In this document: piece by piece, positions 32,542-33,245 of the stretch
Numbering within the stretch: the stretch's first letter is position 1
How the letters are laid out: every line of letters begins with the position of its first letter
Assembly: GCF_001273775.1 (NCBI RefSeq)
Contig: NZ_CP011801.1
Coordinates: forward strand, 3,078,001 to 3,142,000
Length of the DNA stretch: 64,000 nt
Direction: 5' to 3'
From: Nitrospira moscoviensis
GTDB lineage: Bacteria > Nitrospirota > Nitrospiria > Nitrospirales > Nitrospiraceae
Made by a program: the position numbers and the translations under genes
Notes under the pieces: model-generated
Database searches by the model: none
What the model was told of the DNA's origin: nothing
Seen by the model: the letters and a program-made list of their open reading frames with translations, nothing else

Positions 32542-32973
32542 ATGCGCCGCGTGAGTACAAGAGAACAGAACGAGCGGAAATTTTCTCATTGGCAGGACTC
32601 GCCAAATGGCGAAAGGCGGTACTGGCTCGACATCCACAGCAGTCTGGGTGGAAGGCACGCTATGTCAAAGAGGTGGACGCCAAGGAAATGACCCTCCGCT
32701 TCTATCAGGAAATTATGACGAAACCGGCAATCTGGTTGAGGTCCATCATAAGTATCCGATAGACTTAGCCCGCATTATTCATGAGCGCTTCTGCTGCAAT
32801 CGCCGATCCGCTGCTGCGACGAGCCTTCGGCCGGCGGGCTCGCCCCTCAGACCCTCCACGTACTGCACGAGTACGCGTCGGGTCCTCAGGGCTCCGCGCG
32901 CCGGTCTCGCGACGCGGCTCCGCGATTTCGCGACGAACCGTCATGAATAATGCGGGTTAGGACATCGGAAGGT
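32542..32973 (+). pseudogene. Small conserved gene broken by two frameshifts and a MITE insertion
   Basis: Reads RKFSHWQDSPNGERRYWLDI in frame 1, then GWKARYVKEVDAKEMTLRFY in a second frame, then DETGNLVEVHHKYPID in a third: two frameshifts, the second consistent with loss of one base near 32713. A 188-bp element interrupts the next codons. Removing the element and one TTAG copy restores YPIDLGHRKV-stop, ending at 32973. I recall a small family with this pattern, usually paired with the type of gene that follows at 32982. Intact function unknown. Confidence 0.72.
32769..32956. mobile_element. 188-bp MITE-like element with 16-bp TIRs and TTAG target duplication
   Basis: Ends are perfect inverted repeats: CCCGCATTATTCATGA at 32769-32784 and its reverse complement at 32941-32956. 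Both sides carry the direct repeat TTAG (32765-32768 and 32957-32960). The interior is non-coding with further palindromes (for example CGTACT-GCACG-AGTACG). Excision in silico restores the reading frame of the host gene end, which is strong evidence for insertion. No transposase is present, so mobilisation must be in trans. Confidence 0.85.
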
Positions 32974-32981
32974 ATGACGGC

Positions 32982-33245
32982 ATGAAACGGATTACTCGCG
33001 AGACTGTGGCTGGGCAACTTTCCGCCTACCTGCGGCACGAACTCCCGTTAGCGAATTTGGTGGACTGGGCAGAATCGGCCTTAATGGAGGGTGAGTTTGA
33101 TCCATCGCATGTGTCCGCTATTCGCGATGCGGTAGCTCGAATCGGCGTGGCCGACGTGCGCGCGTTCGGATTGACGTGGGAAGACTGCGAACAACTCCTC
33201 GACCGACTCGGCTACTCCGCCCACGTCAGCATCACGGCCCGCTAG
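32982..33245 (+). CDS. Small helical protein, partner of the disrupted gene (87 aa)
   Basis: MKRITRETVAGQLSAYLRHE, LANLVDWAESALMEGEFDP, then IGVADVRAFGLTWEDCEQLL. I recognise the overall pattern as a small bacterial family found immediately downstream of genes like the pseudogene before it (9-nt gap), but no function is known to me. The two-gene arrangement resembles a toxin-antitoxin or accessory pair; with its partner broken, it is a candidate orphan. Soluble, complete and without frameshifts. Confidence 0.72.
   Translation: MKRITRETVAGQLSAYLRHELPLANLVDWAESALMEGEFDPSHVSAIRDAVARIGVADVRAFGLTWEDCEQLLDRLGYSAHVSITAR

Follow-up and report, generated by a model that had tools for sequence, protein, structure and literature searches.

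A 188-bp miniature element of Nitrospira moscoviensis and an IS1380-family transposase as its probable mobiliser

In the window analysed here, a stretch of 64,000 nucleotides of the Nitrospira moscoviensis genome (NZ_CP011801.1, positions 3,078,001 to 3,142,000), a short palindromic segment interrupts a small gene. The locus raises two questions: whether the segment is a mobile element, and which transposase could have moved it.

The insertion and its host gene

The 188-bp segment is bounded by two perfect 16-bp terminal inverted repeats (TIRs) and carries a directly repeated TTAG on its flanks (Table 1), as an earlier note made from the letters alone had described. The end CCCGCATTATTCATGA, allowing at most one mismatch, occurs 11 times in the host genome (one contig of 4.59 Mb) versus 0 times for a reversed control pattern, and further copies of the whole element are present in the genome, indicating that the element is not a product of chance. 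The sequence of relatives is continuous through the insertion site (for example GTAGACTTAGGACATCGAAAGG), indicating that the TTAG at position 32765 is a duplication made on insertion. The element is a MITE: it is short, has no transposase gene, has TIRs, is present in multiple copies with target duplications, and its site is empty in relatives. The earlier note's reading of a non-autonomous, MITE-like insertion is thus borne out. Both outcomes that it had set against that reading, namely an absence of other copies and the presence of the same 188 bp in relatives without a TTAG duplication, were looked for, and neither was observed.

Table 1. Features of the insertion locus (positions in the window)
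Feature	Coordinates	Strand	Remarks
Non-autonomous element (MITE), 188 bp	32769..32956	+ (orientation arbitrary)	Multi-copy in genome and family; TIR; target site duplication
Left terminal inverted repeat CCCGCATTATTCATGA	32769..32784	+	Matches ends of IS1380-family elements
Right terminal inverted repeat	32941..32956	-	Over 20 bp (TIR and the 4 adjoining subterminal bases), 95% identity with the right end of IS1380 element L166
Target site duplication, left copy TTAG	32765..32768	.	Orthologous site in relatives without element
Target site duplication, right copy TTAG	32957..32960	.	Orthologous site in relatives without element
Palindromic interior	32785..32940	.	Helices 17-26/162-173, 30-43/146-159, 61-71/128-138, 91-96/102-107 (element coordinates)
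Interrupted host gene; 86-aa open frame ending VHDKYPVDLGHRKV in relatives	32551..32976	+	Former 3' end at 32961-32976; gaps of 1 bp at about 32639 and 32713
Downstream partner gene, 87 aa, intact, conserved beside host gene	32982..33245	+	Comparison with relatives

Removal of the element and one TTAG restores the C-terminus PIDLGHRKV followed by a stop, the same as in relatives; in nine loci (L225, L228, L230, L233, L235, L236, L237, L239 and L241) the upstream frame stays open as far as VHDKYPVDLGHRKV or near variants. The statement that the element is inserted in a small gene holds to the extent that the gene is interrupted by the element, but the gene also has two further frame-breaking gaps, each a 1-bp alignment gap relative to relatives, in its upstream part. 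Given these gaps, the alignment points to one of two situations: either the gene is broken independently of the insertion, or the assembly contains small errors there. Together with the 87-aa gene downstream, the host gene (86 aa) makes up a conserved two-gene module (window 32551-33245; L225-L253) that recurs in many genomes of the genus, and neither gene has a family match in Pfam or NCBIfam. A partial second 87-aa gene lies near the module in five genomes (G032, G036, G055, G063 and G077).

Copies, targets and the palindromic interior

The search for further copies with the same TIRs, proposed in the earlier note, recovered three full copies elsewhere in the host genome, at 1842039 (99.5% identity), 4387913 (96%) and 3349217 (95%), as well as a 255-bp copy with an extra internal palindromic stretch at 3067868 and older remnants at 2280761 and 2565548. 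The note had called the insertion recent-looking; a twin copy that differs at only 1 base of 188 gives this partial support, but even the nearest of the relatives compared are not close. A separate 4-bp duplication flanks each of the five well-kept copies: TTAG in the window, CTAG at 1842039, CTAA at 4387913, and CTAG at both 3349217 and 3067868. At the copy at G000:C1:3349217 (L004), a 472-aa open frame takes its TAG stop from the left CTAG duplication and has thus kept its length despite the insertion; YTAR targets contain TAA or TAG. The 255-bp copy (G000:C1:3067868-3068122, L005) lies directly upstream of a frame that by eye resembles a VapC-type PIN-domain gene.

Identical 4-bp flanks were found in 45 of 95 distinct TIR-bounded elements; 44 of these 45 are YTAR, with CTAG accounting for 31, and identical flanks of the other lengths examined (3, 5 and 6 bp) were absent. 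CTAG is palindromic and might therefore pass for a continuation of the inverted repeat. The flanks that are not palindromic, however, are direct in nine cases and inverted in one, which identifies the flank as a duplication rather than a prolongation of the TIR. The YTAR targets are close to the TTAA of piggyBac, the counterpart of IS1380 in eukaryotes.

The 188-bp element family is present in nearly all sampled Nitrospira relatives. Specifically, relatives of the element occur in 66 of 79 genomes of the genus Nitrospira, and copies in other genera of the Nitrospira family reach 95% identity. In a phylum-wide sample, with kinship taken from the sample's own kinship column, the interior is matched in 72 of 79 genomes of the family versus 2 of 217 outside it. 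The interior thus hardly occurs beyond a single family, and the end sequence is far more widespread: the exact CCCGCATTATTCATGA end was found in at least 117 stretches, including stretches from Acidobacteriota, Gammaproteobacteria, Planctomycetota, Myxococcota and Eisenbacteria. Some of these end matches come in pairs that have YTAR duplications and interiors of another sequence; single matches may have arisen by chance.

The interior is palindromic, as the earlier note, which had called it non-coding, described. It folds much better than shuffled sequences (z of -5.2), and no significant coding signal was detected. A 59-aa frame that starts with an ATG inside one end and takes its stop from the target duplication, and that is open on the plus strand in 32 of the 35 full-length 188-bp copies, could in principle encode a peptide. 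We regard this as extremely improbable, for the excess of synonymous changes (52 versus 44.6 expected, P ~0.09) is not significant and is equal on the other strand, and the lengths of related elements do not differ by multiples of three; coding potential was accordingly rejected.

Across 35 copies, pairing is kept in 96% of cells, and both partners have changed in 12 pairs, a number reached in 0 of 500 shuffles (a test inflated by the relatedness of the sequences) and compared with 1-6 for slid structures. These compensatory changes in the internal helices, together with the retention of the interior in most sampled family genomes, would fit a role of the palindrome for the host, as a transcript hairpin or two-way terminator, with mobility being secondary. 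Such a role is nevertheless unlikely, since the arms of a palindrome can stay matched through template switching, the copies occur in varied sequence contexts, and the element has no match in Rfam. The palindrome may be maintained either by selection for the hairpin or by arm matching through template switching.

IS1380-family transposases as candidate mobilisers

The earlier note left the transposase unnamed and suggested a search for an IS with matching ends. We located IS1380 transposases in the genus with the PF13701 (DDE_Tnp_1_4) profile, independently of any end sequence, and strong matches were obtained in a minority of the genomes. Those recognised as IS1380 transposases by NCBIfam NF033539 have scores of 263-372 bits versus a cut-off of 180. 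The corresponding elements are 1.69-1.74 kb long and have ends CCCGGATWATTCAYGA and variants. In five of them (L165-L169), both ends are within 1-4 mismatches per 16 of the MITE end, and CTAG or another YTAR lies beside nearly all of these ends; five others (L171, L172, L174, L188 and L191) have at least one MITE-like end each. In particular, CTAG is present on both sides of L167, L168 and L169, and the flanks are CTAG/CTAT for L165, CTAG/TTAG for L166 and TTAG/CTAA for L188. At the right end of L166, the likeness to the MITE continues 4 bp past the TIR (Table 1). Thus, IS1380 elements of the same genus, found by their transposase, carry the matching ends that the note had asked for.

Weaker PF13701 matches (L177-L187) serve as an internal negative control and lack MITE-like ends. 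They belong to a second type of IS in the genus Nitrospira, ~1.55 kb long, mostly with ATTCCGCAGT ends and CCGG flanks. In other phyla, among genomes picked solely for the exact TIR, IS1380 matches adjoin such ends in three loci (L254, L255 and L259), with YTAR outside. In Marinospirillum (L158/L261), a 792-bp element, bounded by CCCGCCTTATTCATGA on one side and CCCGCATTATTCATGA on the other, encloses the C-terminal portion of an IS1380 transposase.

The two kinds of end are not the same throughout. IS ends mostly read CCCGGAT and MITE ends CCCGCAT. We found no element in which two exact MITE ends enclose a complete IS1380 gene and, among the loci with the TIR pattern, no long IS that combines one exact MITE end with identical 4-bp flanks. 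No MITE-IS similarity extends beyond ~20 bp at the right end, and homology of the 3' segment of the IS to MITE interiors is limited to the last 15-36 bp. We rejected the MITE as an internal deletion product of a known IS, the shared interior being absent and the similarity being confined to ~20 bp at the ends, and also as a member of the IS1380 family itself, as it is 188 bp long and has no transposase. Among the IS elements, L166-L169 are ~80% identical through the transposase gene and differ in the last 220 bp, except for L166 versus L169, as if their right ends had been exchanged.

A PF13701 search of the host genome gave no match to an IS1380 transposase. The host genome does contain five PF01609 matches, which brings an IS5-type (DDE_Tnp_1) transposase into consideration. 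Transposases of this type use YTAR or TA targets, the targets of the element are YTAR-like, and one of the five matches (L042, near 2754382, G000:C1) belongs to an 826-bp element with CTAG flanks. However, the ends of that element read AACCTATCTCAAAAT, unlike CCCGCATTATTCATGA, and no MITE-like end pair was found around the three other PF01609 loci examined. We therefore rejected an IS5-type mobiliser for having ends other than those of the MITE, and movement by such a transposase is very improbable.

Judged by its ends, which match those of IS1380 elements, and by its target duplication, which is like theirs, the element would depend on an IS1380 transposase, and the ends are very probably recognised in trans by a DDE transposase of this piggyBac-related family. 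After binding to both CCCGCATTATTCATGA ends, the transposase would excise the element and place it in a YTAR site, whose 4 bp would thereby be duplicated; the source of the transposase would have been lost from the host genome or would only have passed through it. We infer that IS1380 moves the element by cut and paste, the latter step from the relationship between IS1380 and piggyBac (PMC5718144), and that the host genome no longer contains the source. As this genome has no IS1380 transposase match, the element is most likely stranded at present or owes its position to a transposase that was lost or only visited. A broader proposal, which we consider possible but doubtful, is that the ends are a near-universal substrate: the IS1380 transposases of several phyla would share nearly the same ends, and any visiting IS1380 could move such elements. 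If true, this would account for the survival of MITEs in genomes without a transposase of their own and for the family-wide population of orphan MITEs.

Comparison with known systems

The element is of an ordinary kind and is well supported, and it is an unusually clear case, combining a duplication, empty sites, further copies and a probable mobiliser. In the openly licensed papers searched, we found no earlier description of the end sequence or of IS1380-derived MITEs in Nitrospira, and linking a MITE that occurs throughout the Nitrospira family to IS1380 is likely to be new. It would provide a likely mobiliser for a repeat of most sampled Nitrospira family genomes and would explain many small insertions and contig breaks in them.

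Like IS1380 insertion sequences, the element has ends that start with CCC, TIRs of ~16 bp and a short target duplication, and its ends are 1-4 mismatches from those of the five elements with both ends read. The IS differ from it in their length of 1.69-1.74 kb, their transposase gene and the CCCGGAT (versus CCCGCAT) of most ends; for IS1247, which belongs to the family, a duplication of 5 bp is listed (PMC3281130), versus the 4 bp found here. The Tn3-derived TIMEs are likewise bacterial non-autonomous elements moved in trans, but they make 5- or 6-bp duplications in AT-rich DNA (PMC4133298), in contrast to the 4-bp YTAR duplication of the element. PiggyBac, which has been paired with IS1380 (PMC5718144), has CCC ends and a 4-bp TTAA target, sometimes TTAG or CTAA (PMC10813416). 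With piggyBac and its miniature derivatives in eukaryotes, the element shares the CCC ends and the 4-bp target, and it differs from them in being bacterial, in a YTAR that is mostly CTAG and not TTAA, and in an unrelated interior. The element would represent a MITE system in bacteria whose ends and targets are piggyBac-like.
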